A stretch of DNA of 64,000 bases from a virus (IMGVR_UViG_3300009375_000001:1-64000); one strand, 5' to 3'; counted from the stretch's first letter, positions 223 through 49,611 are shown. The notes: a model not told the origin generated them from the letters alone. Numbers and translations are program-made.

Positions 223-1521
223 TTATACTTTCAATTTTTGATTGCTTGTTTTGAAGTCTTTCTTCCTCATCACAGTTTTAGCAACCAAATCAAACTCATC
301 CATATCTGGATCGTATTTTAATACAAATGGCATATTTATATCTGTTTGTAAATCATTCAATACTGCTTGAGCATCGTCACCCATCTTAGCAATTTTCTTA
401 CCATGTTTCTTATATGTTTGTTTGAATAGACGTGTCAATTCAGCAACACTAATTTCTTTACCGTTACGTTTATCGTTCACCCTATCAAGGAAATGACGAG
501 TAAATTCAATATCAATACCAACTTTAGCAAAGATTTTGTCAGCAAAACGTTCAACATCGTTTAAGTTTGCTTTAGTGATTTGCTCGTCAAATTGTTCGAA
601 ACTTTCATAACGTGTTTTTCTATCAAGAACTTTCTTTAATTCTTTAACACTAATACCAACCATTTGTGCCGCTTTTGATAAAGCAAGTCCTTTAGGATTG
701 GCGATAATAACACCTGATGATTGTTGTGCTTGAGGATTTTTGTTGTAGTTCTTAACCATTTTATGGTAAATCTTCAATGCCTGTTTATACTTCTTTTCGT
801 GTACAGCACGGTTGAAGGTATGCATCGTTTTCTTACCAATGATTGCTTTGAACATATCTTTCAATGTTCCTTCGTCTAATTCGCCTGGAGTGTTTTTCTT
901 GTATTCTTTAGTAGTTTCGTCAGTACCCATTTCAAGATATTCATTGATACCCATACCAGACTTAACATCATTGAAGAATTTCTCACCATCTTGTTTAGAA
1001 GCAGATTTAGGAAGTCCTTTCATAAATGATTTCATATCACCATTCTTAACGTGGTTTCGCATATCAGTACCAGATACGCCAGCTTTACGATTACCAGAAC
1101 TAATCACTTCAAATTTATCAAAGTTATATGATTTCTTTGGATCTTCGTGGTTTATATAAGGTCGCATACTCTTTTCAAATTCATCTGCCCTATCACTACC
1201 TACAACCATAGTTACGTCTTTATAACCTTGGTCAGATAACCATTTTAATATTTGAAATGGTGTTTTTAATGTAGTATTCTTAACGATAGTTGCTTTAGGG
1301 AAAAACTTCTTTAACCACTTAGTTTTTGTATTATAATCTAATGGGTTCTTTTTAGGCTCATTGGATTGTGAGGTAAACACCATTCCAATACCACCTTTTG
1401 ATTTCTTAACAACGAAGTCAATCAACTCACCGTGTCCTTTAGTTATAGGATTAAATCTACCAAACGTAAACACGACTGGTTTATTCTTTGCTTCTTCTAA
1501 ATGTTGTTTAAATGTTAACAT
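223..1521 (-). CDS. Nucleotidyltransferase-domain protein with capsid-targeting-like leader
   Basis: 432 aa. Residues 1-10 (MLTFKQHLEE, then A11) match the T4 internal-protein leader, with a good gp21-type cleavage site L-E-E|A. The next ~140 residues look like a HxGH-class nucleotidyltransferase: GRFNPITKGHGEL is the adenylyl/cytidylyltransferase signature, VVGSDRADEF follows, and ISSGNRKAGVSGTDMR looks like the nucleotide-binding loop. The last ~130 residues (FTRHFLDRVNDKRNGK through KTVMRKKDFKTSNQKLKV) form a separate conserved-looking basic domain of unknown role. It is the last gene of a coupled operon (1-base TAATG overlap with the gene before it). Inferred role: packaged in the capsid and injected, where it would transfer a nucleotide to an unknown host or phage target. 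The substrate cannot be told. Confidence 0.75.
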   Translation of the reverse strand: MLTFKQHLEEAKNKPVVFTFGRFNPITKGHGELIDFVVKKSKGGIGMVFTSQSNEPKKNPLDYNTKTKWLKKFFPKATIVKNTTLKTPFQILKWLSDQGYKDVTMVVGSDRADEFEKSMRPYINHEDPKKSYNFDKFEVISSGNRKAGVSGTDMRNHVKNGDMKSFMKGLPKSASKQDGEKFFNDVKSGMGINEYLEMGTDETTKEYKKNTPGELDEGTLKDMFKAIIGKKTMHTFNRAVHEKKYKQALKIYHKMVKNYNKNPQAQQSSGVIIANPKGLALSKAAQMVGISVKELKKVLDRKTRYESFEQFDEQITKANLNDVERFADKIFAKVGIDIEFTRHFLDRVNDKRNGKEISVAELTRLFKQTYKKHGKKIAKMGDDAQAVLNDLQTDINMPFVLKYDPDMDEFDLVAKTVMRKKDFKTSNQKLKV

Positions 1522-2525
1522 TATAACTTACTCCTTTGTGATATCGGCATCTTCCAGAACGAACCGTCCTTCATTGCCTTTGCCTTCTTAACACTCCACA
1601 TTGTTTGGATTTTCATAGTTTGTCCGTACATTTTATGAAATAATTTTGCCACTGTTTTTGCTGATTTATCAAATGCTTTCTTATCTTGTTTTAAAGCGGC
1701 ATCAATCATAGCATCATTATGCTTACGCATTGCATCATCACTCTTATTCTTACCAGCAACTTTACCCGCTTTAGATGCAGTACCTTGATTTTTAAAACCT
1801 TTTATACCAGATTGACTATCGTCACGTTTTATTGCTTCTTTTAATGGATTAAATTTTGCTTTTACTTTATTACCAATACCCAATACAATTGCACCAATAA
1901 ACTGAACAGATGATGGTCCAGGCCATGGGAACGATAATCCAATAACACCAGTGATGAATAACGTCAATAACTTAGCACCTTCAGGACCACCGAAGATAGT
2001 TGCCAACGAGAACTTACCAGCAAGTGCAGAAAGAATATCACCCATATCAAAGTCATAACCAACATCACCAGTGAATGTCATATTGAACCAAATATATATT
2101 AACATACCCGATACAACCACACCACCCATACGTTTGGTTTTTTTGTGTGTCTTTAGATACTCATCCAACTTTGCTAATTCTTTAGTAGTCCATTTACCAA
2201 CAACTGTATTTGACATATAATCAAATATAACTTTTTGAACCGTTTTAAATGCTTTCCAACCAGCTTTCATGATCTTAAAGATTCTATCAAAAGACCATTT
2301 TATTGCCTTGAAGAATTGAAATACAACCTTTTCCTTAAAGAAATTAACCATATCATTAAAGTTCTTTTTAAGAATAACGGCAACGTTTTTAACAAACTCT
2401 ACCTTTTTCTTAATAAAACTAGGCATAGCAAGTTCATTAAGGTTAGTACCATTTTCATAATGTGTAAGGGCTTCTACAAATAAATTGTATTCATAATCCT
2501 TATCAAATTGTGCAAATGATTTCAT
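1521..2525 (-). CDS. Predicted internal/injected membrane-active protein
   Basis: 334 aa, function not recognised. It starts MKSFAQFDKD, resembling the leaders of its neighbours, but lacks their [L/I]xE at residues 8-10; weaker candidate processing sites are FVE|A at 16-18 and LNE at 29-31. Residues 35-130 are strongly basic and amphipathic. Hydrophobic segments follow at about 133-151, 185-199 and 206-219, the last two flanking a Pro/Trp-rich turn, then a Lys-rich C-terminus. This suggests a membrane-inserting protein, possibly one that passes from the head into the cell envelope. The stop is one base before the next gene's ATG and it shares the late operon with four other predicted internal proteins. 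Confidence 0.65.
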   Translation of the reverse strand: MKSFAQFDKDYEYNLFVEALTHYENGTNLNELAMPSFIKKKVEFVKNVAVILKKNFNDMVNFFKEKVVFQFFKAIKWSFDRIFKIMKAGWKAFKTVQKVIFDYMSNTVVGKWTTKELAKLDEYLKTHKKTKRMGGVVVSGMLIYIWFNMTFTGDVGYDFDMGDILSALAGKFSLATIFGGPEGAKLLTLFITGVIGLSFPWPGPSSVQFIGAIVLGIGNKVKAKFNPLKEAIKRDDSQSGIKGFKNQGTASKAGKVAGKNKSDDAMRKHNDAMIDAALKQDKKAFDKSAKTVAKLFHKMYGQTMKIQTMWSVKKAKAMKDGSFWKMPISQRSKL

Positions 2526-2526
2526 A

Positions 2527-3126
2527 TTATTGTTTAATTCTATACTTCTTAATAAGTTTATCCATCACTTTAACGTGTTCTGCAGTCCATCTAGCATTAC
2601 TTGGGTTTACGAACTTTGGACCTAATTTATCAACATACTTACTCCACTCAATAGCAGCCTTTACGTTGTCTGCGTCAATAAGTCTGTCCAACTTATTTTC
2701 CATATCCTTTTGTGGAGATAGTCCTTCGGTAACATATTCTTCTTTAAGTTTCCTTAATGAGTTATTTGCTAATATTGAAATGAAGTTGATTTTAGCATTA
2801 ACTAATGATTGTAATGCTTCTTTAGGTAAAGAATCAATCATTGCTCTCATCTTTTTATATGTATCACTTGATGGGTCGATTTTCTTAATTCCTGCATAAT
2901 CTTTCTTTAGTTGTGCAAGTTGTTTAGAAGTAAATTCCATTTCATTAAGTTCAACCCCTTCTTTCATTGCTTTGATTTTCTTCCACACATCGTCAAGTTC
3001 CTTACGAACTTCCATTTGATTAGGTGAATTTGAAACCATTTTCATCGCTTTCAAAAATAGTTGAACTTTCTTTTTTTCTAATGAAGATAGCGATTCTTCT
3101 TTTATATGTTGTTTGAATGTTTTCAT
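2527..3126 (-). CDS. Predicted internal head protein, unknown function
   Basis: 199 aa, helical and charged, with no enzyme motif. The leader MKTFKQHIKE (residues 1-10) places I-x-E exactly where T4 internal proteins are cut by the prohead protease. The segment ELNEMEFTSKQLAQLKKDYA near residue 60 has another LNE, so further processing is possible. The ATG overlaps the previous gene's stop (ATGA), showing translational coupling. No cysteines, signal peptide or membrane segment were seen. Packaging in the capsid is inferred from the leader and the operon context; what it does after entry is unknown. Confidence 0.65.
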   Translation of the reverse strand: MKTFKQHIKEESLSSLEKKKVQLFLKAMKMVSNSPNQMEVRKELDDVWKKIKAMKEGVELNEMEFTSKQLAQLKKDYAGIKKIDPSSDTYKKMRAMIDSLPKEALQSLVNAKINFISILANNSLRKLKEEYVTEGLSPQKDMENKLDRLIDADNVKAAIEWSKYVDKLGPKFVNPSNARWTAEHVKVMDKLIKKYRIKQ

Positions 3127-4007
3127 AATGGCACCCTTACCTTAATTGAACCACCAGTAATAGTATCAATAACTGATCCAGATAGTTTTGGTTTATAGTA
3201 TAATTCTAATGTGTCTATGTTGAAAAAGAAATATTTCATTTTATGTGCAGATAGTTTTGCTTCTAAACCAGTTTCTATTTCATCATATCCTTTTATCTTT
3301 GTGTATTCTGTAGTCGCTAACGTCTTTAATTTACTAAGTATATCCTTATCAGTTAGTTTACCAATAGTTTTACCTTGGAAAATAACTTTTTGGTTTTTAA
3401 AAACATTAATATCTAGTTTTTCATAACCAGCAGCAACTGAAGGATCGAACCCTTTTAAATGCTTTTTAAGTGATGTCATTTCACCACGGTCGATTTTTGA
3501 TAACATTTCATCATTGTTAATTTCATCTATATAGAATTTTGCAACCTTATATAAAGCCTTAATTTCTTTTAATGTATTAATTAATGCACCACGACTGTCA
3601 ACACCTAATCTAAAATTATATGCAAACAAATTCTTATCTACTTTTGTTGCCTTAACTTCAATTTTATGTGTACCTAATTCAACATCAAAGTTTGAACGTC
3701 CACCACCAATAGTTACGTTATCAGATAAGTAAGCAAGTAAAACTTCGCCAGGACCAACCCCTTTAGGCACATCATTAAATATCTTTGTAAAAATAGCTTT
3801 ATTTTTAGTAAGTGCCTTATTAAATTCAGTAACAAACTTTTCAGGTGTAGTTGCTGAAATTTTACCAACGTCTTTAGTTATTTTATGTTTTGCGTTAATT
3901 AACTCTCTTAATTCTTCGGTTTTACTTTTATCAGCGGCTAATGTCAAAACATCACTTGATGATTTTGTACGTGCCTTTTCAGTAATAAACTCATTAAATT
4001 TTTTCAT
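3123..4007 (-). CDS. PD-(D/E)xK nuclease-like protein with capsid-targeting leader
   Basis: 294 aa from the ATG at 4007. This start is chosen because GGGTG lies nine bases upstream and the protein then opens MKKFNEFITE (residues 1-10), the T4-type leader with I-x-E at 8-10; an upstream ATG at 4022 has no ribosome site. Residues 103-121 carry GRSNFDVELGTHKIEVKAT, i.e. D108...E117-V-K119 on two strands, the layout of a PD-(D/E)xK nuclease core, preceded by a GPGE turn. Inferred: a packaged DNA nuclease injected to act on host DNA or rival DNA. The remaining catalytic residues cannot be assigned by eye, so the nuclease call is moderate. Confidence 0.65.
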   Translation of the reverse strand: MKKFNEFITEKARTKSSSDVLTLAADKSKTEELRELINAKHKITKDVGKISATTPEKFVTEFNKALTKNKAIFTKIFNDVPKGVGPGEVLLAYLSDNVTIGGGRSNFDVELGTHKIEVKATKVDKNLFAYNFRLGVDSRGALINTLKEIKALYKVAKFYIDEINNDEMLSKIDRGEMTSLKKHLKGFDPSVAAGYEKLDINVFKNQKVIFQGKTIGKLTDKDILSKLKTLATTEYTKIKGYDEIETGLEAKLSAHKMKYFFFNIDTLELYYKPKLSGSVIDTITGGSIKVRVPL

Positions 4008-4009
4008 AT

Positions 4010-5233
4010 TTATTTCACCCATTGTTTTACTGCATTGAAGTTATTTTTACTAAACTCCAATCTATTAACTAATTTAACTGCACTGTTTGATAATGTATCA
4101 ATAGCAACAAAACCCTCTGGTCCTGTAGTCTTATAACCAGTATCAGTCTTAATAAATGCAGGTATTTGATTGACTGTTTCTAATTTCTTAACAATTAACA
4201 TTTTAATATCAATAACATCATCGTGCCATTGTAATGTATGTGAGAATGTACCAGCAGATTTACGGAAATCTTTAATAACATCTTCTAATTGTTTTTTCTT
4301 CTTCTCTTTACCCTTTTCGCTCTTTAATTTAGCAATTTTCTTTTCATAATCTGCACGGATAAAGTCAATGAATGTACCAACAGATTTCTGTTTATTAGTA
4401 AACCTTTCACCACGTCTAACTTGTGCATTTATATAAATCTTAACCATCTTTGACACTTCAGTCTTACCAAATAATATACTCATATCTTTATCATTTAATA
4501 ATTTCAACTCTTTATGTGCGTGTTTTAGTTTTGTCTGAATTGTCTTATATTCAGTAGTGGTTAATGTAGCAGAACCAGAAACATCCCTAAAGTTTGTGTC
4601 AGTAAACCAAACATCTTTATGTTGTGTAAATGCTTTTAGATTAATTTTAAACTGTGCCTTTAAATTACTGATTGCATCACCAGTGTATGTGGTATGCCAA
4701 ATAACACCAACTTTAGATGAAGTTATTTTACTTTCTAAATCACCACCTGTAGGTACTGCATATGTAATTGTGTTGGGGGTAAATGTAGTGTATGTTTCAC
4801 CATCAATCTTTTCTTTTTTAAGGTCTTCTGGTGAAAACATAAAATCACCTTGATATATACCTTTTTTTATAATTTTAGGGAAATGTTTTAAAGCGTCTTT
4901 TAATTTGGTGGCAAGACCACCTGAATGGTTCTTATCAATATCTGCGTCTGTGTAATTGATTTTTGGTGTTTTATTGAATAATGATTTAGTACCTACAAAA
5001 AACTTACCGTTTTCTGGGTCAATACCAGCAACCACAGCTGGTGCTCCATCAACCTTTGCCTGAATATTTACTGCACGTTTAGAGTGTCCTTCTAAAGAAT
5101 GTGTAACATCATCTAAAATTTTAAGGGCAGATTCTGCTCCTGATTTACCAAAATCAAAGATAGCATCCTCTACGTGCTCTAAATGTGTTAGAGGGACTGC
5201 CTTTTCTTGTAAATAGGTTTTGAAACTTTTCAT
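4010..5233 (-). CDS. Ligase-like nucleotidyltransferase-fold protein with capsid-targeting leader
   Basis: 407 aa. Leader MKSFKTYLQE (L8-x-E10|K) as in T4 internal proteins. K60-V-D-G63 resembles motif I (KxDG) of covalent nucleotidyltransferases (DNA/RNA ligases, capping enzymes). VGTKSLFNK (80-88), YQGDFMFS (127-134) and SKVGVIWHTTY (173-183) sit where motifs Ia, III and IV are expected. Lys-rich helices fill residues 260-330. It is the first gene of the injected-protein operon, with a late promoter box at 5266-5273. Known: KxDG enzymes form a lysyl-AMP or lysyl-GMP intermediate. Inferred: an injected ligase or a protein/nucleic-acid adenylylating enzyme. It could also be a non-catalytic relative; similar large proteins occur in marine phages without assigned function. 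Confidence 0.65.
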   Translation of the reverse strand: MKSFKTYLQEKAVPLTHLEHVEDAIFDFGKSGAESALKILDDVTHSLEGHSKRAVNIQAKVDGAPAVVAGIDPENGKFFVGTKSLFNKTPKINYTDADIDKNHSGGLATKLKDALKHFPKIIKKGIYQGDFMFSPEDLKKEKIDGETYTTFTPNTITYAVPTGGDLESKITSSKVGVIWHTTYTGDAISNLKAQFKINLKAFTQHKDVWFTDTNFRDVSGSATLTTTEYKTIQTKLKHAHKELKLLNDKDMSILFGKTEVSKMVKIYINAQVRRGERFTNKQKSVGTFIDFIRADYEKKIAKLKSEKGKEKKKKQLEDVIKDFRKSAGTFSHTLQWHDDVIDIKMLIVKKLETVNQIPAFIKTDTGYKTTGPEGFVAIDTLSNSAVKLVNRLEFSKNNFNAVKQWVK

Positions 5234-5265: not shown

Positions 5266-5273
5266 TATTTATA
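5266..5273 (-). promoter_or_regulatory. T4-type late promoter box for the injected-protein operon
   Basis: Exact TATAAATA on the minus strand, 33 bases upstream of the ATG at 5233. It lies at the 3' end of the MTA/SAH nucleosidase gene and marks a switch from the replication block to a late operon. Confidence 0.7.
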
Positions 5274-29362: not shown

Positions 29363-30556
29363 TTACAGGTTAGTAACAGTAAACTTACGGAAGTAAGGGT
29401 TTGCACCAGCAGCACCAGAAGCAAATGGATTCATAGTAATTCCGTAACGAGTCTTGAAACCAAGACGTGGTTGGAAGTCCTCTTCACCAATTGATTTCAT
29501 CAACTGTAATGGAACGTATGGGCAGTAGAACATACCAGCATCATACATATTTGAACCTTTAAAACCAACGATTACTGAATCACTAGAAGCAAATTGGTCA
29601 ACAAATACCTTAAACTTACCACCTAATGTACCAGCAAACACGTTGTCAGTAACGTCAGGTTGTGAACCGTTGTCAAGTGACATATTAGGTTCAGCAAGTG
29701 AAGAAGTCATATCTAGAGCAGATGCAACATCTGGAGATACGATTAACCAGTTACCACGACCACGACCAGTGTTCTTAGCAATTAAGTTTGCTTCCTTGTT
29801 AATCTGTACAAGTAGTGACTTATAACGTTCACCACCCCAACGAGCACCACGGTTATCAACTGCATCAGCAACGTCGAAAGTACCAGCAGTAGTAGTACCA
29901 GCAGTAGCACCAGCAGTAGCTTGTGAACTAATAGTATTGATAATCTCACGGTTGATTTCAGCAAGAATTTCACCTGAAAGAATGTTACTTAATTCAGACT
30001 CAGCGTCTAAACCATGAATTGCTTTAAGGTCTTGTGCAAGTTCTAAAGAGTACTTGGCTTTAAGTGCCTTAGTTTTAGCAGTAACACTTGACTTTTCAAT
30101 TGAGAATGACATCTCATTGTAAGTAGTTGCACCACCATCAAAACCACCAAGATTCTCACCTTGTGCAGTAGTCATTGCGTCAGCAGTACCATCGTCACCA
30201 GCAAAATCTGTATCTGGAGCACCTGCAGTAGTAGTAAGAGCTTCAGCACCAGTAGCGGCGTTACCAGTGTAATGAGATTTCATTGCAAAGATAAGACCAG
30301 TTGGACCACTCATTGGTTGTACACCAATTGTGTCATATGCCATAAGTTTAGGCATAGTACGACGAACTAATGAAATAAGAACTGGATCCCAGTTATCTAC
30401 ATTAGCACCTGTAACATTAGCTTCATCTAAAGCTGTCTGTTGATTTTCTAAAAGACGAAGTGTAATAGCTCGTTTTGTAGCATCTTTAATTGCAGGTACA
30501 TCTGCGTGCTCCATAACCGGCTCCCACTTATCTTTAATTTCTTCTGATAAAAACAT
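29363..30556 (-). CDS. 23: Major capsid protein gp23
   Basis: 397 aa, short as in marine T4-like phages. LENQQTALDEANVTGANVDNWDPVLISLVRRTMPKLMAYDTIGVQPMSGPTGLIFAMKSHY is diagnostic. T-L-D-E45|A46 fits the gp21 cleavage rule [L/I]xE|A, so mature gp23 would begin near residue 46. HK97-like fold by family. Followed by a strong terminator; preceded by the scaffold gene. Confidence 0.96.
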   Translation of the reverse strand: MFLSEEIKDKWEPVMEHADVPAIKDATKRAITLRLLENQQTALDEANVTGANVDNWDPVLISLVRRTMPKLMAYDTIGVQPMSGPTGLIFAMKSHYTGNAATGAEALTTTAGAPDTDFAGDDGTADAMTTAQGENLGGFDGGATTYNEMSFSIEKSSVTAKTKALKAKYSLELAQDLKAIHGLDAESELSNILSGEILAEINREIINTISSQATAGATAGTTTAGTFDVADAVDNRGARWGGERYKSLLVQINKEANLIAKNTGRGRGNWLIVSPDVASALDMTSSLAEPNMSLDNGSQPDVTDNVFAGTLGGKFKVFVDQFASSDSVIVGFKGSNMYDAGMFYCPYVPLQLMKSIGEEDFQPRLGFKTRYGITMNPFASGAAGANPYFRKFTVTNL

Positions 30557-30587: not shown

Positions 30588-31685
30588 TTAAGCACCTAAG
30601 ATGCTTTTCGTGGTTGTTGATGAAAGCGAATCAACGATGCGTTTCATAGAATCGCTCATCTCTCCGTCATTAGTGTTTACTTCTGTGTTACCTTCAGCAA
30701 TTACTTCTTCTTTCTTTTCTTCAGAAGGAAAGTAAGTTTCCTTCAAAGTTTCTAACTTTTCAGTATAAGATTCAGCGTCTTCAAATACAACACCTTCAGC
30801 AAGAGAATTTAACTTCTCTACTTGTGTCATAGTCAAATCTTCAGAAACTGTACCAAAAATTTCTTTAGCAGTTGCTTCATCTAAAGACTTACGTGCTTCA
30901 ATGTTTTTATTCATTTCAGCATCTAACTCTTCTTTAAGACTAGCAATTTCATTTGCTTGTTCGTCAAGGATGTTATGTTTGTCCTCTGGAACTTCAATGT
31001 AATTTTCTGCGAATAATGTTTGTAGACCACCAACGAAACCTTCTAAGATTTCATTTTTAAGACCATTTTCAACAGCAAGTTTATTTTCTTCAACCCACTC
31101 GTTTACCATGTAGTCCAAGTAACCGTCTAACTTAGCAGTCACATCTTCTAAAAGTGCGTCTGTTTTTTCAGTTAATTCTGCTTCCATTTTTTCTTCGATA
31201 GCAGATAGGTTTTCTTTAACTTTTGCCTTAACAGCAGTTTCAAATACTAAAGTTGTACGTGCTTTAAAGTCTTCAGTCAATTCTTGACCGTCGAATAATG
31301 CGTCCATATCTTCTTGAACGTCAACTTCTAATTCCACTTCTTCTTTAGCAACTTTTTTGTCTTCTTCAACTTCGTCGTCTTCGTCTGCATCATCAGCGTC
31401 TTCGTCGATGTCGTCTTTGTCTTCATCTTCGTCGTCATCTTCCATAACTTCACCAGAGCCAGGAATTACCTTTTTCTTTTTAGTTACATTTTTCGCTTTA
31501 GGTTCAGCAGCACCTTCTGTTACATCATCAGTATCTTCAGCAACAATTTCTAAATCGCCAGATTCTAATAATGCATCAACTTCAGACGCCTCAATTGAAG
31601 TATCAGATGTAGCATCTTCAGAAATATAAAATTCCTGTGCTTCATCTAAAACTAACATTTCGCCAGTTTCTGTTTTTAACTTCAT
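30588..31685 (-). CDS. 22: Prohead scaffold (core) protein gp22
   Basis: 365 aa. Very acidic residues 80-120 and a long Glu/Lys helical C-terminal two-thirds, as expected for T4-like scaffold. Located between protease gp21 and capsid gp23. It forms the prohead core and is cut to small peptides by gp21. Late box at 31747-31754. Confidence 0.85.
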   Translation of the reverse strand: MKLKTETGEMLVLDEAQEFYISEDATSDTSIEASEVDALLESGDLEIVAEDTDDVTEGAAEPKAKNVTKKKKVIPGSGEVMEDDDEDEDKDDIDEDADDADEDDEVEEDKKVAKEEVELEVDVQEDMDALFDGQELTEDFKARTTLVFETAVKAKVKENLSAIEEKMEAELTEKTDALLEDVTAKLDGYLDYMVNEWVEENKLAVENGLKNEILEGFVGGLQTLFAENYIEVPEDKHNILDEQANEIASLKEELDAEMNKNIEARKSLDEATAKEIFGTVSEDLTMTQVEKLNSLAEGVVFEDAESYTEKLETLKETYFPSEEKKEEVIAEGNTEVNTNDGEMSDSMKRIVDSLSSTTTKSILGA

Positions 31686-31784: not shown

Positions 31785-32426
31785 TTACAGTTTATTGATA
31801 AATTCATTGAAAATACGTGCTTCTAACGCCGTTAAACGGTTTTTGCTAGTTTTTTCAACTTCTTTTTTCATCTCTGCAATTTCTTGTTCTTTAATAATAC
31901 CATTATCCCAAACCCATTCTTTACCTTCCATAATACCATTTACAAAGGCATCTGGTGCAGATGGATCTGCTACAATGTCAGCGGCAGTAGCAAGATAAAA
32001 GTCACCTTGTACTTCCTGAATTCCTTTCTTATTTGCTTTCAGTGTTCCCATACCTCTTGACGAAACACCAAGTTGGGCACCTTCATTAATAAGATTCTTA
32101 ACAATATTTCCGTGTGGTGTATCTGTAATCTTTGCCTTACCAATATAATTTGAACCATCTTTCTTTAGTTCTGTAATCATATGTGATACACGGTCAAGAT
32201 TAATAGTAGGTCCATCAGGATGTCCTAACTCACCAAAAGCACGTTTCTTGTCAATGTATGTTTCTGTGTAACGTTTAACTTCCTTTTCCATAATAGAGCC
32301 AGGATAAACACGTCCGTTACGATTCTTCAAATCTGCTTGTAAAAACACACCTTCTATGTATAAGTCTTTTCCTTTACCTTCTGTTAGGTAATTTACTTGC
32401 TCATTAATTTCAGATATTAGTCTCAT
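31785..32426 (-). CDS. 21: Prohead core protease gp21
   Basis: 213 aa. Herpesvirus/T4-type serine protease: LYIEGVFLQADLKNRNGRVYP, FGELGHPDGPTINLDRVSHMI with the catalytic His, GVSSRGMG with the catalytic Ser. YLTE|G at residues 13-17 is a self-processing type site. It cleaves scaffold, gp23 and internal proteins after [L/I]xE, relevant to the leaders of the 223-5233 cluster. Confidence 0.93.
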   Translation of the reverse strand: MRLISEINEQVNYLTEGKGKDLYIEGVFLQADLKNRNGRVYPGSIMEKEVKRYTETYIDKKRAFGELGHPDGPTINLDRVSHMITELKKDGSNYIGKAKITDTPHGNIVKNLINEGAQLGVSSRGMGTLKANKKGIQEVQGDFYLATAADIVADPSAPDAFVNGIMEGKEWVWDNGIIKEQEIAEMKKEVEKTSKNRLTALEARIFNEFINKL

Positions 32427-42624: not shown

Positions 42625-42642
42625 TAAAATGGATAGTTAGTG

Positions 42643-43887
42643 ATGAATGAAAAGAAAATTATAGTTATTGGTGATGTAATGGTGGACGAATACTGGAATG
42701 GCAGTTGCACACGGATATCACCAGAAGCACCTGTTCCAGTAGTGGACGATATATCGGTTTCTCATAGACTTGGTGGTGCAGCCAACGTTGCACTTGCCAC
42801 AAAGGTATTTACCCCCGATACAAGGTTATATGGGTGTGTGGGGTATGATAAAGGCTCTATGATCCTAACACATAAATTAACAGAAAATGACGTTAAATAT
42901 AACTTTAGATATTCTTATGAAAATAAGACTATTACTAAAATTAGAATTATGTCGGACAAAAACCAATTAGTACGTATTGATCACGGTAATGTGGAATATC
43001 CACAAAATAACACAATAGATTATCAACCTGATGTTATTATCGTTTCTGACTATAATAAAGGTACTATATGTGGTGAGTATTTAGACTATTTAATGGATTT
43101 TTCTTGTCCAGTTATTATTGACCCTAAAGGTACTGATTGGATAAAATACAAAGGTGCTTATTGCTTAACACCAAATAAGAAAGAGTTTGAAGAAGTGTAT
43201 GGTGAATTTAGTATAGAATTAGCACGTGATGTGGTTTTTCTTTTAGACTTAAAGGGTATATTGGTTACCCTTGGTGCTGAGGGAATGGTATGGGTAGATA
43301 AGGATAATCATATTAAATTAAACTCTGAAGCAAAAGAAGTATATGATGTTACAGGAGCAGGTGATACTGTTATAGCAACGTTTGCTTCTTTCTTACACGA
43401 AGGTGTTGAAACTGCTATGAGAAAGGCAACCAAAGCGGCTGGTGTAGTAGTAGGTAAAGTTGGTACTGCTGTTCCGAAATATGAAGATGTTATTGAAAAG
43501 GTTGTGTTTACTAACGGTTGTTTCGACATTATACATAGTGGTCATATTGCCTTATTAAAGGAATCTGCTAAATTGGGAGATAGGTTAATTGTTGGTATTA
43601 ACAGTGATAAGTCGGTAGAGCGTATTAAACGAAACCCTATTAACAATGAGGAAGATAGAAAACTTATTTTAGAAGCAATTGATGGTGTCGATGAAGTTGT
43701 TATTTTTGATGACGACACACCAATTGAGTTGATTAAAAAAATCAAACCAAACGTGATAGTGAAAGGTGGTGACTACACAGTTGAAACTGTTGTAGGTGCT
43801 GATATTGTAGATGAAGTTGTTATATTTCCAACGTTAGAAGGAAAGAGTACAACAAATGTGATTAAGAGGATTAAAGATGTCGACTAG
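42643..43887 (+). CDS. hldE: Bifunctional heptose-7-phosphate kinase / heptose-1-phosphate adenylyltransferase HldE
   Basis: 414 aa from ATG 42643. N-terminal PfkB-type kinase: IVIGDVMVDEYWNG, RLGGAANVALA, PNKKEFEEVYG, and DVTGAGDTVIATFAS with the catalytic Asp. C-terminal cytidylyltransferase domain: VFTNGCFDIIHSGHIALLKE (HxGH) and GKSTTNVIKRIK. Both halves of the E. coli enzyme are present, in a shorter protein. It turns heptose-7-P into ADP-D-glycero-D-manno-heptose (the intermediate phosphatase step needs GmhB, not seen). One of only two plus-strand genes; partner HldD is at 44229-45095. Confidence 0.93.
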   Translation: MNEKKIIVIGDVMVDEYWNGSCTRISPEAPVPVVDDISVSHRLGGAANVALATKVFTPDTRLYGCVGYDKGSMILTHKLTENDVKYNFRYSYENKTITKIRIMSDKNQLVRIDHGNVEYPQNNTIDYQPDVIIVSDYNKGTICGEYLDYLMDFSCPVIIDPKGTDWIKYKGAYCLTPNKKEFEEVYGEFSIELARDVVFLLDLKGILVTLGAEGMVWVDKDNHIKLNSEAKEVYDVTGAGDTVIATFASFLHEGVETAMRKATKAAGVVVGKVGTAVPKYEDVIEKVVFTNGCFDIIHSGHIALLKESAKLGDRLIVGINSDKSVERIKRNPINNEEDRKLILEAIDGVDEVVIFDDDTPIELIKKIKPNVIVKGGDYTVETVVGADIVDEVVIFPTLEGKSTTNVIKRIKDVD

Positions 43888-44236
43888 AATTCAAAAGGGT
43901 TGGGGACACGAACTGATACATGAAAGTAATGAGCAATATTGTATGAAGGAACTGCACTTCTACAAGAAAGGTCATAAATCATCAATGCATTTCCATAAAA
44001 ATAAAACCGAAACGTGGGTCATTATGGAAGGGAAAATACAGATTGAATTTATGGATATGTCAGATTCTTCAACACACGTAACTATAATGGAAAAAGGTTA
44101 TGTAATAACTATTCCACCTATGAAACCACATCAAGTAACTTGTTTAGAAGATAATACGATAGTTATGGAATCATCTAGTAAAGACGAATCATCCGATAAC
44201 TATCGTATTAGACCTGGCGATAGTCAGGTCATATGA
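43877..44236 (+). CDS. Cupin-domain protein
   Basis: 119 aa. Cupin motifs: GWGHELIHES, SSMHFHKNKTETWVIMEGK (HxH...E) and IPPMKPHQVTCLED with the distal His. Resembles the C-terminal cupin of mannose-6-phosphate isomerases and sugar-nucleotide pathway enzymes. GAGG ribosome site; overlaps the hldE stop by 11 bases, so co-expressed. Likely a sugar isomerase/epimerase-type or sugar-binding enzyme in the heptose cassette. Confidence 0.75.
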   Translation: MSTRIQKGWGHELIHESNEQYCMKELHFYKKGHKSSMHFHKNKTETWVIMEGKIQIEFMDMSDSSTHVTIMEKGYVITIPPMKPHQVTCLEDNTIVMESSSKDESSDNYRIRPGDSQVI

Positions 44237-44250
44237 TTTGTTCATATGAC
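44228..44250. terminator. Shared convergent hairpin holding both stop codons
   Basis: Nine-bp perfect inverted repeat (GTCATATGA / TCATATGAC) with 5-base loop. The plus-strand cupin stop (44234-44236) and minus-strand hldD stop (44229-44231) lie in its arms. No T-tract; may act as a convergent terminator or RNA 3' protector. Confidence 0.5.
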
Positions 44251-45095
44251 GACATATTTGCCTTGGTGTATTTTTGATAGTGTTGTTGCAGTTCATCTGG
44301 CATATTAATATATTCAATATCACTATCACTGACGCCAATTTCATCTTTTGCTAATTGAAGGAAAGATCTTGCTTCGCCAGTACCAATATTATATACACCA
44401 CTTTTACATATTTCCATTAAATGTATTGTTTTATCAACTGCTTCGTCTATATGAATAAAATCACGTTTATAATCATCAGAACCCTTGAATAATTTAATTT
44501 TACCAGTAGACACATATTGTTCTTTCATCCAAGCAGTTGGTGATTTCATACCAACTTTATGTGTTTCGAATTCACCATCAGAATAAACATTAAAATACCT
44601 AAGACCAATCATTTTACATTTCTTCATTAAAGGTCTTGCATATTTATCTGCCTGTAGTTTTGAAAAACCGTACATATTGTTTGGTTGGTAGTTGTCTTTT
44701 TCATCATGGAAATATTCTTCTTCACTTCCATAAACAGATGCCGATGATGCATATAATAAATTAATTTTATGTTTAGCACATATATTCATTATATTGCAAG
44801 TAAATTGATAGTTGTTAGACATTAAGTATTTACCATCATTGCAAGTTGTTGATGACTCAGCACCAAAATGGTATATTTCTGAAACCATGTCGTTTTCTGC
44901 TAATATTGATAAAATTTCAATAAAATTTTCTTTATCAATATAATCACTAATCTGAAGATCTTTAATATTATTAATTTTAGTTCCGTCTGTTAGGTCATCA
45001 ACTAAAATAATGTTAGTCACCCCACTATCATTGAGTTTTTTAATAACCCTACTACCAATAAACCCTGCTCCACCTGTTACTATAATATTTTTCAT
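44229..45095 (-). CDS. hldD: ADP-L-glycero-D-manno-heptose-6-epimerase HldD
   Basis: 288 aa, a little shorter than bacterial HldD. NAD(P)-binding VTGGAGFIGSRVIKKL, DDLTDGTKINNIKDLQISDYIDKE, SSTTCNDGKYLMSNNYQFT, YASSASVYGSEE, YGFSK catalytic Tyr/Lys, LRYFNVYSDGE, and C-terminal INMPDELQQHYQKYTKANMS match HldD rather than UDP-glucose epimerase. Final step to ADP-L-glycero-D-manno-heptose. Start overlaps the carbamoyltransferase stop (ATGA). The C-terminal helix seems truncated. Confidence 0.9.
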   Translation of the reverse strand: MKNIIVTGGAGFIGSRVIKKLNDSGVTNIILVDDLTDGTKINNIKDLQISDYIDKENFIEILSILAENDMVSEIYHFGAESSTTCNDGKYLMSNNYQFTCNIMNICAKHKINLLYASSASVYGSEEEYFHDEKDNYQPNNMYGFSKLQADKYARPLMKKCKMIGLRYFNVYSDGEFETHKVGMKSPTAWMKEQYVSTGKIKLFKGSDDYKRDFIHIDEAVDKTIHLMEICKSGVYNIGTGEARSFLQLAKDEIGVSDSDIEYINMPDELQQHYQKYTKANMSSYEQII

Positions 45096-46873
45096 TTATT
45101 TTTAACCTCAATTATTAAATTATTATCTGGAATATAGAGATATTCAATATCACTATTGGCAAGTGTACGAATGGCGTCATCAATAGTTTCAACAAGTGGT
45201 TCGCCACCAAGATTGAAAGATGTATTGAATAAAATTGGCACTCCAGTTTCTTTGTAGAAGTGGTCAATCATTTCATAGTAAACTGGATTTTGATGTTCTT
45301 TTACAGTCTGAATTCTACAAGTACCATCTACGTGAATGATTGCTGGAATTTGTTCTGCATATTCATCAGTTGAACAATTCATAGCATACATCATATGTGG
45401 TGACTCTTCAAGACCTCTCATATCAAACCACTCATGTGCGTGTTCGTGTAATATTGAACCTGCAAAAGGTCTAAAGTATTCTCTACGTTTAACTTTATTC
45501 ACATAGTCTTTACCATCAAGTGTACGTGGATCGAATAGGATAGAACGGTTACCTAAAGCACGAGGACCATTTTCGCATCTATCTTGGAATAATGTAACAA
45601 TATTACCTTTTAGAATTAACTTAACTGCATCAGTGGAGTACTGTTCATCAAACACACCAGTCGCACCATATTTCTTAGCAATTTCAATAATTTCTTCAGT
45701 AGTATTCTTTTGTACAGGACCAAGATATAACGATTCTGCAAAATCTCTAACTTTACTATCTTTATTAATAGAATGGTGTACCAACATGGCGGCTCCCATT
45801 GCTGTACCAGCATCATTAGAAATAGGTTCTACATAAATGTTAATGTCCTCATCTTTCAATTGTTCTAAGTACCAATAGTTTGCTACACAGTTAAGACCGT
45901 AACCACCAGAAATAACAACGTTCTTCTCTCCACTCATTTTAACTGCTTTACGGATTAAATCTAATACCATTTGTTGAGATTCAGTCTGTACTGCATATGC
46001 CATATCTCTACGGTTTTGTAGTAATGTTACGTCACCTGATATTTGTTCTTCACTAGAAGTTAAATACTTATACTTACCAAAGTTAACTAATGCACCATTC
46101 GGATATGTTGGAATAATTACATTTCTATCTGCCGTTTTCCACTCACCACCTGCATCTGTATAGATATTAGGGAATTTATCATTTGGTTTACCGTAAGGAA
46201 ATAACCCCATTGTCTTTCCTGCTTCAATAGGTGACCAACCACAATATTGTGTAACTGCTTCATATGACTTAACAATACCTGCAGTATCATCAAGAATCAA
46301 TTCATGTGTTCCTTCTTCACCTTCACGTTCACTAGAAACTTCTGGTAAATGAGCACCTTGCCATGGACCTCTACCACCTTGGTGTTTATATAACGTTTTA
46401 AAATCTGCAGGATATTTACAATTAATAATACTTTCTAATTCCCAAGTCATTTCTTCATTACCATTAATATTCATTGGAATGAATGTACCTGCTCCGTCTA
46501 CAATAACTGATACTGCAGTTTCAAAACCAGAACGGTAAAATGCACAGGCAGAATGTGACTTATGGTGCCATTTGTGTAAATCTAATACTTGATTTTCTGG
46601 GTCATCAATTAAACGTAATTTACGTGCTAGACCAGTATAAACACTATCACCACTAAAATCAACTCTAGAATCATCTGGTTGTGTATGTGAAATTACAAGA
46701 TAATCTAACTTATCTGTGTAGTCTAAAATCTTAACCATAGAAGCATATGGTCCACCATCATATTTCTGTCTACTTAAACGCTCTTCCTCAATAGCAAAAA
46801 CAACCTCTCCATCCTTTAATAGACATACACCACCGTTATGTCCTCTAGCAATACCTGCAATCCACTGACTCAT
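45092..46873 (-). CDS. NodU/CmcH-type carbamoyltransferase
   Basis: 593 aa, full length. Kae1-like N-domain: IARGHNGGVCLLKDGEVVFAIEEERLSR, HKWHHKSHSACAFYRSGF metal-binding His, VIVDGAG; YrdC-like C-domain: FQDRCENGPRALGNRSILFDPR and LFNTSFNLGGEPLVETIDDAI. Transfers carbamoyl from carbamoyl-phosphate via carbamoyl-AMP to a hydroxyl of a sugar or other acceptor. Flanked by HldD and a GT9 glycosyltransferase, so a sugar acceptor is likely. Confidence 0.92.
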   Translation of the reverse strand: MSQWIAGIARGHNGGVCLLKDGEVVFAIEEERLSRQKYDGGPYASMVKILDYTDKLDYLVISHTQPDDSRVDFSGDSVYTGLARKLRLIDDPENQVLDLHKWHHKSHSACAFYRSGFETAVSVIVDGAGTFIPMNINGNEEMTWELESIINCKYPADFKTLYKHQGGRGPWQGAHLPEVSSEREGEEGTHELILDDTAGIVKSYEAVTQYCGWSPIEAGKTMGLFPYGKPNDKFPNIYTDAGGEWKTADRNVIIPTYPNGALVNFGKYKYLTSSEEQISGDVTLLQNRRDMAYAVQTESQQMVLDLIRKAVKMSGEKNVVISGGYGLNCVANYWYLEQLKDEDINIYVEPISNDAGTAMGAAMLVHHSINKDSKVRDFAESLYLGPVQKNTTEEIIEIAKKYGATGVFDEQYSTDAVKLILKGNIVTLFQDRCENGPRALGNRSILFDPRTLDGKDYVNKVKRREYFRPFAGSILHEHAHEWFDMRGLEESPHMMYAMNCSTDEYAEQIPAIIHVDGTCRIQTVKEHQNPVYYEMIDHFYKETGVPILFNTSFNLGGEPLVETIDDAIRTLANSDIEYLYIPDNNLIIEVKNK

Positions 46874-46874
46874 A

Positions 46875-47936
46875 TTATAATTCTCCTAAAAGGTTCTTTG
46901 TATTAAATTTATATTCTGGTGTATTACTACCTGCAGGAATAGACCCACAACTACCACCACACTCTTCTGTTGGTGTAAAAGAACCTTCAAACCTTTCACC
47001 TTTACCTAGAAACGAAACTACAGAATCAACTACAAGTTGCTCTTGTTCTTCGTCCATCATCATTACTTCATCATTTCCACGATCACGTTCATCATCTATA
47101 GAAACTCTAATAGGGGAATAAACCCTTTTATCTTTACCAATATCTACAATATCAAACCCATCAAAGTTTGGGTAACTAATATTTTCTGGGAATGTAGACC
47201 CTGTTACTACCGTTGCAGTTTTACCTAGAGATTTTGCGATATGTTGACCTACAGAGTCGCACCCTAAGAAATGGTCTGCAGAATTAATAATGGATGCCCA
47301 TAATCTAATATCAGGTATTTGTGGGAATGCTACCATATTTTTCTCATCTGTAGATACTGTTATTGGGTATTCGCTCATTACAATAACTAAATACTCTTTT
47401 CTTAGTTTCTCAATAATGTTAATAATATTTTGTAATTCAAAAGAGCGGCTGGATTGGTCTACTAAAAAATCACCCATTTTTGAAATAGAACGTCCAAATG
47501 GTTGAACTACTACTACCTTATTTTTCCCAATAGATGACTTCATCTCTTGTATTGTTTGGTGACCTTGAATTAATTCATTTTTATTTAGTTTTATAATTGG
47601 ATCTGGTAAAACCCTTGGTTCGACTAACTCATTAATTATTATATCAAACGCTTGTGCTAAATTGCACTTCTGATTGAAATATTCATTAACCCTATATGGT
47701 TCAGGTGATACTATATCTTTATCTTTAAGGTGGTTTTCAAATAAACCTTTATGCCATGATTCATAAGCACGTTTGTGTAGATTTGGATGTCCCCTATAGA
47801 AGTCCATACCTGCTTCACAAACAATAATAAAATCATCATCACCAGATTCTTCTGCATATTTATTCAATGCTGGAATTGAACACAGAACACGTCCTGCACC
47901 ACCGTTTATAAAAAACGCTTTAGAGCGATTGCTCAT
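46875..47936 (-). CDS. GT9 (heptosyltransferase-like) glycosyltransferase
   Basis: 353 aa. GT-B fold, glycosyltransferase family 9: FINGGAGRVLCSIPALNKYAE, VVVVQPFG, and ADHFLGCDSVGQHIAKSLGKTATVVTGSTFPENISYP, where family members bind ADP-heptose. C-terminal CGGSCGSIP adds an odd cysteine cluster. With HldE/HldD it suggests a heptose donor and its transferase. Two promoters precede it (47977-48005 and 48019-48026). Confidence 0.82.
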   Translation of the reverse strand: MSNRSKAFFINGGAGRVLCSIPALNKYAEESGDDDFIIVCEAGMDFYRGHPNLHKRAYESWHKGLFENHLKDKDIVSPEPYRVNEYFNQKCNLAQAFDIIINELVEPRVLPDPIIKLNKNELIQGHQTIQEMKSSIGKNKVVVVQPFGRSISKMGDFLVDQSSRSFELQNIINIIEKLRKEYLVIVMSEYPITVSTDEKNMVAFPQIPDIRLWASIINSADHFLGCDSVGQHIAKSLGKTATVVTGSTFPENISYPNFDGFDIVDIGKDKRVYSPIRVSIDDERDRGNDEVMMMDEEQEQLVVDSVVSFLGKGERFEGSFTPTEECGGSCGSIPAGSNTPEYKFNTKNLLGEL

Positions 47937-47976
47937 TTTTCACCTCACTTGTTAATAATATAATCATAATAGAGTT

Positions 47977-48005
47977 ATTATACCCTATTTTTATGTAAAA
48001 GTCAA
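47977..48005 (-). promoter_or_regulatory. Sigma70-type promoter of the GT9-carbamoyltransferase-hldD operon
   Basis: -35 TTGACT (48000-48005), 17-base spacer, -10 TATAAT (47977-47982). Start near 47970, 34 bases before the ATG with an AGGTG site. Confidence 0.8.
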
Positions 48006-48018
48006 CCTTTTGTGAAAT

Positions 48019-48026
48019 TATTTATA
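48019..48026 (-). promoter_or_regulatory. Late promoter box upstream of GT9
   Basis: Exact TATAAATA on the minus strand, overlapping the stop of the halogenase-like gene; the operon may also be expressed late. Confidence 0.5.
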
Positions 48027-49611
48027 CACCACTATAAATTGTACGTTTTAGGAATTCATAATGTGTAGGTAATGAATTGATATAATCTTTGTTTAATTCT
48101 ATTTCTTCAGATATTAGTTGTTCAATTTCTTTAGACCTAGAATATGGAACATTCATATTATCTTCACCATAAAACATTTCTATACCCATTTTAGTTATTG
48201 GGTTATATCCAAATCCTGCCATGATAAAAGACATACCATTTTTTCTTGGTGTTTCCCCAGACCAATCTGAATATAGAGTTATCTTTTCAGGTACATAATC
48301 TATTAAACCTTTCCACTCGTCTGAAGAATCATCAGTATATTTTATATCTTCAGTTACATATTTCCAATATGGTGTATCATCACGTTCTGACATAGCATAA
48401 TGGGCTGCTATAAATGAAGTGAATTTTTGCATTCCAACTCTAATATTTCTATTAAAAATTTCTTTATCATAACCATTTACACCACAATTACGTCTTTGTA
48501 ATGTTTGTATTAGTGCAAATATACTATTATGTGTCAACATTAAACCAGTTGCTTCTATTGGTTCTATGAAACCGTTTGATAGACCAATAGCACATACGTT
48601 TTTAACCCAACTTCGTTCACGTATGCCTGGATTAATATCAACGTGCATTGCTTTAATTGATTCTATTTCCTCTCTACTATGTTTAATATCCCTATCATTA
48701 ATCAAATACTCTCTAAACTCATTTTCTGCTTCTTCTTCAGTTAAAAACTTAGAACTATACACGTACCCTGTGCCTATCCTATCCCACAGTGGGGTATTCC
48801 ATACCCAACCAGAACTTAATGTAGTTGCATTTGTTGAATGTTCAAGTTCTTCGTTTTTATTAACATAAGGTATTCTTATTGCAATTGCCTTATCATTAAG
48901 AAGTTTATCTGTAAATGAAATATAAGGTTCGTTTAATACCCCATCTAGTAGTAATGATCTAAACCCAGTGCAATCTATAAACAAATCTGCAGTAACAGTA
49001 TCACCACCAGATAGAATTAATTTATCCACATCGCCATCTTCATTTTGGGTTACTGAAATTACTGTATCTATTGTTTGTGTAACCCCTTTTGGAATACAGT
49101 AATATTTTTTCAAATAATCACCAAATAGACCTGCGTCCATATGATATGCTGTATCTTTATCAAAATTCCAACCACGTATTTTAAAATCTCTAGTTAATTT
49201 ATTATTTCTAATCATTTGATCAGAACCAAGTGCAAATGATGTAAATTCATCTTTATCTGCACCTATCAATGCCTTTTTAGTAAACCAATCTGCAGCTATA
49301 TAATCATCAAAGAAATTAGATTCACCAAATGGATAACGTATTCTTGTACCTTTACCGTCCCAATTAGTGAAATCTATTGATGTTTTATATACGGCATTAC
49401 ACTTCTTCATCCAGTCGGAATCTTTAAGACCTAAGTCTTTTAAAAATATATTAATTGAATTAATGGTGGATTCACCAACACCTATGGTGGGGATATCTGT
49501 TGATTCAATTACTGTAATTTCTAAATCTGGGAAATTTTTCACTAAACTAGATGCAGTCATCCATCCGGCACTACCACCACCTACTATAACTACTTTTTTA
49601 ATACTTTTCAT
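48022..49611 (-). CDS. Tryptophan-halogenase-family flavoenzyme
   Basis: 529 aa, typical length. FAD-binding VIVGGGSAGWMTAS (residues 8-21), IPTIGVGESTI (40-50), K76 in NAVYKTSIDF aligned with the catalytic Lys of PrnA, GWVWNTPL (268-275) for the WxWxIP motif with Ile replaced by Thr, and SNGFIEPIEATG (345-356) with the catalytic Glu. Family enzymes chlorinate or brominate Trp using FADH2; altered motif means the substrate or even activity is open. Such genes recur in marine phages. Ends in the GT9 promoter region. Confidence 0.85.
   Translation of the reverse strand: MKSIKKVVIVGGGSAGWMTASSLVKNFPDLEITVIESTDIPTIGVGESTINSINIFLKDLGLKDSDWMKKCNAVYKTSIDFTNWDGKGTRIRYPFGESNFFDDYIAADWFTKKALIGADKDEFTSFALGSDQMIRNNKLTRDFKIRGWNFDKDTAYHMDAGLFGDYLKKYYCIPKGVTQTIDTVISVTQNEDGDVDKLILSGGDTVTADLFIDCTGFRSLLLDGVLNEPYISFTDKLLNDKAIAIRIPYVNKNEELEHSTNATTLSSGWVWNTPLWDRIGTGYVYSSKFLTEEEAENEFREYLINDRDIKHSREEIESIKAMHVDINPGIRERSWVKNVCAIGLSNGFIEPIEATGLMLTHNSIFALIQTLQRRNCGVNGYDKEIFNRNIRVGMQKFTSFIAAHYAMSERDDTPYWKYVTEDIKYTDDSSDEWKGLIDYVPEKITLYSDWSGETPRKNGMSFIMAGFGYNPITKMGIEMFYGEDNMNVPYSRSKEIEQLISEEIELNKDYINSLPTHYEFLKRTIYSGV

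Follow-up and report, generated by a model that had tools for sequence, protein, structure and literature searches.

Five adjacent late genes at positions 223 to 5,233 of a viral sequence (IMGVR_UViG_3300009375_000001, bases 1-64000 of a contig of 90,356 bases from a marine T4-like phage, hereafter the window) encode proteins which, in four cases, start with a short leader resembling the capsid-targeting sequence (CTS) of the T4 internal proteins. We consider it very likely that these genes form a late cargo operon whose products, marked by a T4-type tag, are packed into the head, cut by gp21 and injected as enzymes; because the proteins bear a T4-like removable head-loading tag, the virus probably delivers a ready-made enzyme set with its DNA. 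Capsid targeting and removal of the tag by gp21 are strongly supported as predictions from the modularity of the leader, the position of its cleavage triad, a gp21-family protease gene and the presence of tagged relatives in virions, and to that extent the original prediction of a packaged, injected enzyme set is supported. For this uncultured phage, we infer packaging, cleavage, injection and enzyme function from the genes.

All five genes lie on the minus strand, where the open reading frames (ORFs) of four adjacent late genes confirm leaders of the form M-[K/L]-x-F-x-x-[H/F/Y]-[L/I]-x-E, with [L/I]-x-E at residues 8-10 as claimed. Gene 1 (4010..5233) joins the leader MKSFKTYLQE (5204..5233, cut predicted after E10) to DUF6267 (PF19782), with motifs KxDG, QGD, EG and K. 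Gene 2 (3123..4007), which starts at an internal ATG of ORF 3123-4022, joins MKKFNEFITE (3978..4007) to a protein with a PD-(D/E)xK-like motif (E..D..IEVKATK). In gene 3 (2527..3126), MKTFKQHIKE (3097..3126) precedes a domain common to many leader-type genes, and a second gp21-type site, LNE↓M (2941..2949), lies directly 5' of this conserved domain. Gene 5 (223..1521) combines MLTFKQHLEE (1492..1521) with a cytidylyltransferase (CTase)-like domain and a second module. Gene 4 (1521..2525) encodes a membrane-type protein with the leader-like start MKSFAQFDKD (2496..2525); this fifth protein exists as described, retaining F4 and F7, but [LI]8 and E10 are absent and replaced by D8 and D10. An aromatic or hydrophobic residue at position 4 and an aromatic residue or His at position 7 are therefore found in the N-terminal ~10 residues of all five proteins, and [L/I]-x-E at the leader end in all except gene 4 (4/5). 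The genes overlap or abut (+2, -4, +1 and -1 nucleotides (nt), in order) and share one late promoter, as predicted: TATAAATA (5266..5273, minus strand) stands 40 nt upstream of the first gene. This motif represents a real late-promoter class, since 17 of its 21 sites in the whole contig lie no more than 150 nt upstream of an ORF, where 1.2 would be expected.

The tag is both specific and modular. The pattern M..[FYLIMVW]...[LIVMF].E was matched by 4 of the 81 ORFs of the contig, all in the operon. In a survey of 87 related loci (a redundant set), the pattern M-x(1,2)-[FYL]-xx-[FYHWML]-[LIVM]-x-E was found at 180 of 1307 gene starts versus 4 of 5776 internal Met residues, a chance rate of 0.07% per Met, at which a chance origin of the tag was rejected. 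The tagged genes reduce to 92 non-redundant proteins in 31 unrelated families, as judged by mature sequence. Positions outside the search pattern are also conserved (K2 in 52/79, T/S3 in 57/79 and K5 in 51/79, as well as Q6). At the DNA level, unrelated tagged genes of one locus (160 pairs) have an identity of 0.65 in their first 30 nt, compared with 0.31 in the next 30 nt and 0.31 in the 20 nt upstream, and two unrelated genes of locus L051 have tag DNA identical at 30/30 nt. As identity is high in the 30-nt tag and drops outside it while the mature parts are unrelated, the tag appears to be a swapped module; the leader is a modular tag on unrelated mature families. T4 resembles this pattern in that IPII and IPIII both start with MKTYQEFIAE, as had been stated for IPI-IPIII; the statement does not hold for IPI, whose leader has 19 residues (MKTFKEF...ITE). 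In one locus (L098:5714-10049), six genes lying close together have tags of the type MK[LF]..Y[IL].E, one of them an RNA ligase (PF09414, E=7e-25).

gp21 of T4 cleaves after L/I-x-E, and mutagenesis of IPIII revealed that residues 4 and 7 are needed for targeting and residues 8 and 10 for processing, Asp at position 10 allowing targeting and blocking processing (PMC9026906). By this precedent the leader of gene 4, without L/I-x-E, would serve for targeting only (PMC9026906), and gene 4 should encode a targeted protein uncut at residue 10; a complete leader (MRLQQYLIEE) is present on a homologue in L098, and L051 has the C-terminal part of gene 4 as a tagged gene of its own. [LIVM]xE precedes the domain in 27 of 29 CTase proteins and in 30 of the 33 DUF6267 proteins whose start could be read, although the IMG/VR set behind the latter count, assembled from sequences similar to the window, is biased to tagged relatives; the same triad occurs in 19% of random 14-residue windows. 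The distance from triad to domain is mostly about 4-8 residues, and usually 4-7 in the DUF6267 proteins, though leaders span 8 to ~25 residues, the shortest being that of HTVC008M (MYNDLLVE↓DKNTH, 8 residues).

The strongest single observation concerns gene 5, in which two tagged genes have fused. In L096 the second module stands alone as a gene that begins with a leader (MKSFKEYIEE↓GTLKDIIK). At the fusion point in the window (871..879, minus strand) the [LI]-x-E triad (LDE↓GTLKD) is conserved, and the fused forms retain it although the letters of the triad itself vary: PGELDE↓GTLKDMFK in the window, PGELEE↓GTLKD in L047 and PGEIME↓GTLKD in L048/L049. These data bear on the possibility that the leader is an N-terminal element with some other job, such as translation start, membrane or tail targeting or docking, and that its likeness to T4 is incidental. 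Packaging in this phage is itself deduced, and A/T-rich starts such as ATGAAAACATTT could aid translation, but conservation falls on the cleavage triad and on residues 4 and 7 at varying leader length, the triad persists at an internal joint, and tagged proteins are present in virions of relatives. We thus regard this explanation as very unlikely, and because the triad at the gene 5 joint is internal, a translation-start role is impossible there; the leader as a translation signal was rejected. Very long tagged proteins in other loci (L066:6004-8562, L062, L064 and L089-L092), which combine CTase, P-loop kinase/zeta-toxin-like and nucleotidyltransferase domains, may also be cargo polyproteins.

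Published virion proteomes, made without reference to the tag, provide independent support for head targeting, chiefly from cyanophage S-CREM2 (PMC10665884; genome OR473000). In this phage 52 of 219 coding sequences (CDS) were found in virions and only 5 of the 219 carry the tag; 4 of the 5 tagged CDS were in virions versus 48 of the 214 others (Fisher p=0.012), significance being lost with a looser leader pattern (6/16, p=0.15). The four are gp6, an S-adenosylmethionine (SAM) lyase (MKDFDSFLEE; PF23780, E=2e-19), gp13 (MKDLHSFLTE), the kinase gp14 (MKRFDAFLTE) and the CTase gp154 (MKNFSSFLTE). Elsewhere, the CTase detected in S-SM1 virions (PMC3037559) starts with MKKFSAFLNE, a kinase reported in S-CRM01 virions has the leader MISFDQFLSE, and the S-SZBM1 virion contains a CTase (MRFRQFIIE↓A) while its leaderless DUF6267 protein (gp141) was not detected. 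The cyanophages S-CREM2, S-SM1, S-SZBM1, S-SCSM1 and S-CRM01 have the same CTase family as the window, and the same leader on virion proteins where checked. Pooling S-CREM2 and S-SZBM1 gave an enrichment of p=0.007, the support from S-SZBM1 being weak. The virion protein gp12 of S-CREM2 (OR473000 7704-10313) is annotated as Cas9, an annotation that looks doubtful, with no Pfam match; it carries an extended tag (LRFASFMAE↓A), and S-N03, MA01 and S-B68 retain this FSxFxxE↓A.

Several results weigh against a general link between tag and virion, besides the bias of the DUF6267 set. Two small tagged proteins of S-SZBM1 (gp191 and gp192) were undetected in a virion in which 30 proteins were found in total, and in this phage enrichment was not significant with the locus pattern (1/3 tagged proteins in the virion, p=0.36), none of 5 tagged proteins being found with the first leader pattern. 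The authors of the proteomes could not exclude contamination. Furthermore, homologues lacking the leader despite kept gene order, named beforehand as a finding that would speak against the proposal, do exist: DUF6267 is leaderless in six cyanophages (S-SM1, S-SZBM1, S-CRM01, MED4-213, ACG-2014a and ACG-2014h) and CTase in two (MED4-213 and ACG-2014h), which implies that head delivery is dispensable for these proteins in some phages. Such homologues would fit a set of ordinary late metabolic or repair genes, acting in the infected cell only, with common starts due to coincidence or old duplication; however, near-identical tag DNA on unrelated mature parts and the chance rate given above make this explanation hardly credible. 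Since the leaderless homologues keep their gene order, the cargo tag is gained and lost by lineage and is not tied to particular genes. It follows that the same family should be found in the virion where tagged and be absent where untagged. Two genes, a CTase gene (KF156340 142471-143022) and a small tag-type gene (NC_023587 142764-142976), carry the name ribonucleotide reductase, which seems to be a misannotation that has spread.

As regards the cargo, gene 1 matches DUF6267 above the cutoff (366.5 bits against 27), and K60-x-D62-G63, Q128-G129-D130, E373-G374, K387 and R391 are invariant in 24 sequences. KxDG, EG and a downstream K are, in kind and order, typical of ligase and capping nucleotidyltransferases. 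The KxDG motif that had been pointed out is invariant, but no ligase fold was recognised: profile searches and Foldseek against the PDB gave chance-level matches only, none with E<=0.001, a further point against the proposed reading, and in an hhalign comparison with T4 Rnl2 the EGYV segment was aligned at a non-significant probability of 0.3%. Given that no solved structure matches significantly, the assignment of DUF6267 as a ligase/capping-type nucleotidyltransferase is a prediction from its motifs. The predicted structure is good, with a predicted local distance difference test (pLDDT) score of 85; disorder over residues 1-13 is what a tag would be expected to show. In S-PM2, DUF6267 and CTase are joined in one fusion, which suggests joint action. 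Intein-like C-terminal halves (VLAHN↓SPAVF and LIHN↓SPAFI) interrupt DUF6267 right after KxDG in L026:9887-11053 and L034:9896-11032; inteins favour active sites.

The claimed HxGH nucleotidyltransferase motif was recovered in gene 5, which matches the cytidylyltransferase-like profile PF01467 (27.8 bits, cutoff 21) and contains TKGHG. For gene 2 the PD-(D/E)xK-like motif was recognised by eye only, no Pfam match was obtained and a search for relatives returned near-identical copies only; as the single-sequence model was too poor (pLDDT 44), we make no claim about its fold. Tagged cargo in other loci includes RNA ligase, SAM lyase, P-loop kinase/zeta-toxin-like proteins with CTase, deoxyribonucleotidase, protein kinase and lysozyme, and RNA repair and anti-restriction may be common themes. 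PADLOC returned no hits.

In the mechanism that we consider most likely, during prohead assembly the tag, mainly through F4 and the aromatic residue or His at position 7, would bind the scaffold core and draw the protein into the head. The expected binding partner, the core scaffold protein gp22, is encoded at 30588..31685, and the presumed cutter, the gp21 prohead protease, at 31785..32426 (Peptidase_S77 in Pfam, E=1.3e-36; phrog_207 in PHROG, E=9e-79; own site LTE16↓G), both on the minus strand, as is the major capsid protein gp23 (29363..30556), which has a gp21-type site, LDE45↓A. The protease would then cut after [L/I]-x-E and release the mature enzyme inside the head; the gene 5 product, a polyprotein made of two cargoes that were once separate, would also be cleaved at the internal LDE. 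The enzymes would enter the next host with the DNA and be active ahead of all phage gene expression. The cargo of this phage, made up of DUF6267, the HxGH nucleotidyltransferase and a possible nuclease, with SAM lyase, RNA ligase and polynucleotide-kinase-like relatives in other phages, would most likely counter immediate host defence through RNA repair, NAD or nucleotide metabolism and anti-restriction. Alternatively, the tagged proteins could be packed and processed but stay in place as parts of the assembly core or as DNA-condensing components, their enzymatic-looking domains going unused in the next host. T4 IPIII does take part in head assembly (PMC9026906), and the core proteins gp22 and gp67 are substrates of the same protease, whereas the cargo described above is very variable among relatives and contains identifiable enzymes, and the catalytic-type motifs of DUF6267 are invariant; we consider such a structural role improbable.

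The T4 CTS is textbook knowledge, and CTase was already known, without explanation, from cyanophage virions, so the system is less undescribed than the original prediction proposed. The operon shares with T4 IPI-III a 10-residue leader with aromatic residues at 4 and 7, [LI]8 and E10, a gp21-type protease and unrelated mature proteins. It differs in that the tag marks an entire operon, located behind gp41 and encoding enzyme-like proteins, that a two-cargo polyprotein has an internal cut site and that leaders vary from 8 to 25 residues in relatives; the mature parts have no Pfam or PHROG match to IPI, IPII or IPIII. The ADP-ribosyltransferase Alt of T4 is a head-packaged enzyme that gp21 processes and that works immediately once injected (PMC9026906). 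These traits would be common to Alt and the proteins of the operon, but no ADP-ribosyltransferase was found in the operon and several enzymes are involved rather than one. In the Dar antirestriction system of P1 several anti-defence proteins are head-loaded, one via an N-terminal signal (PMC9024508); the phage type and signal are different from those considered here, and the proteins are large and loaded stepwise. A review has proposed that the CTS could serve the packaging of varied proteins in T4-like phages (PMC9026906). Our literature search found no report of the tag in marine phages or on DUF6267, which is weak evidence, subscription literature being mostly uncovered. What is new is the enzyme operon, its spread, the signature of tag swapping, the polyprotein whose internal site is conserved and the connection to enzymes found without explanation in virions. 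These virion enzymes were listed as unexplained or possible contaminants, no targeting signal being named in the accessible parts of those reports.

The tag may explain recurring enzymes in cyanophage virions that were suspected to be contaminants, predict from sequence which proteins abundant ocean phages inject, and place hundreds of hypothetical proteins in a functional setting, among them DUF6267 with 466 phage records. In this way the T4 paradigm would become a general, testable rule for spotting pre-loaded counter-defence proteins. A broader proposal, to which we give an even chance, is that the region behind gp41 in marine T4-like phages is an open effector locus with interchangeable contents: any protein gaining the 10-residue tag would become head cargo, polyproteins would be cut in the capsid by the prohead protease, and DUF6267 would represent a new nucleotidyltransferase family, delivered by this route for immediate repair of RNA or nucleotides. 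The operon of the window lies behind a gp41-type helicase gene, and DUF6267 and CTase are likewise downstream of gp41 in other phages of the group.

The only gene between the operon and the helicase gene is PNP/MTA-SAH nucleosidase-like (PF01048; 5269-5886), lies immediately upstream of the operon and has no leader. The nearest relatives of the contig are IMG/VR contigs; among named phages, the best match for DUF6267 is Methylophilales phage Melnitz (40%), and the contig has gene families common to Pelagibacter phage HTVC008M and cyanophages. Between the head/neck and tail genes (42640-49611), the window contains an island of sugar- or surface-type genes, named by eye: a kinase/HldE-like gene (plus strand), an epimerase, a carbamoyltransferase and a halogenase-like gene.

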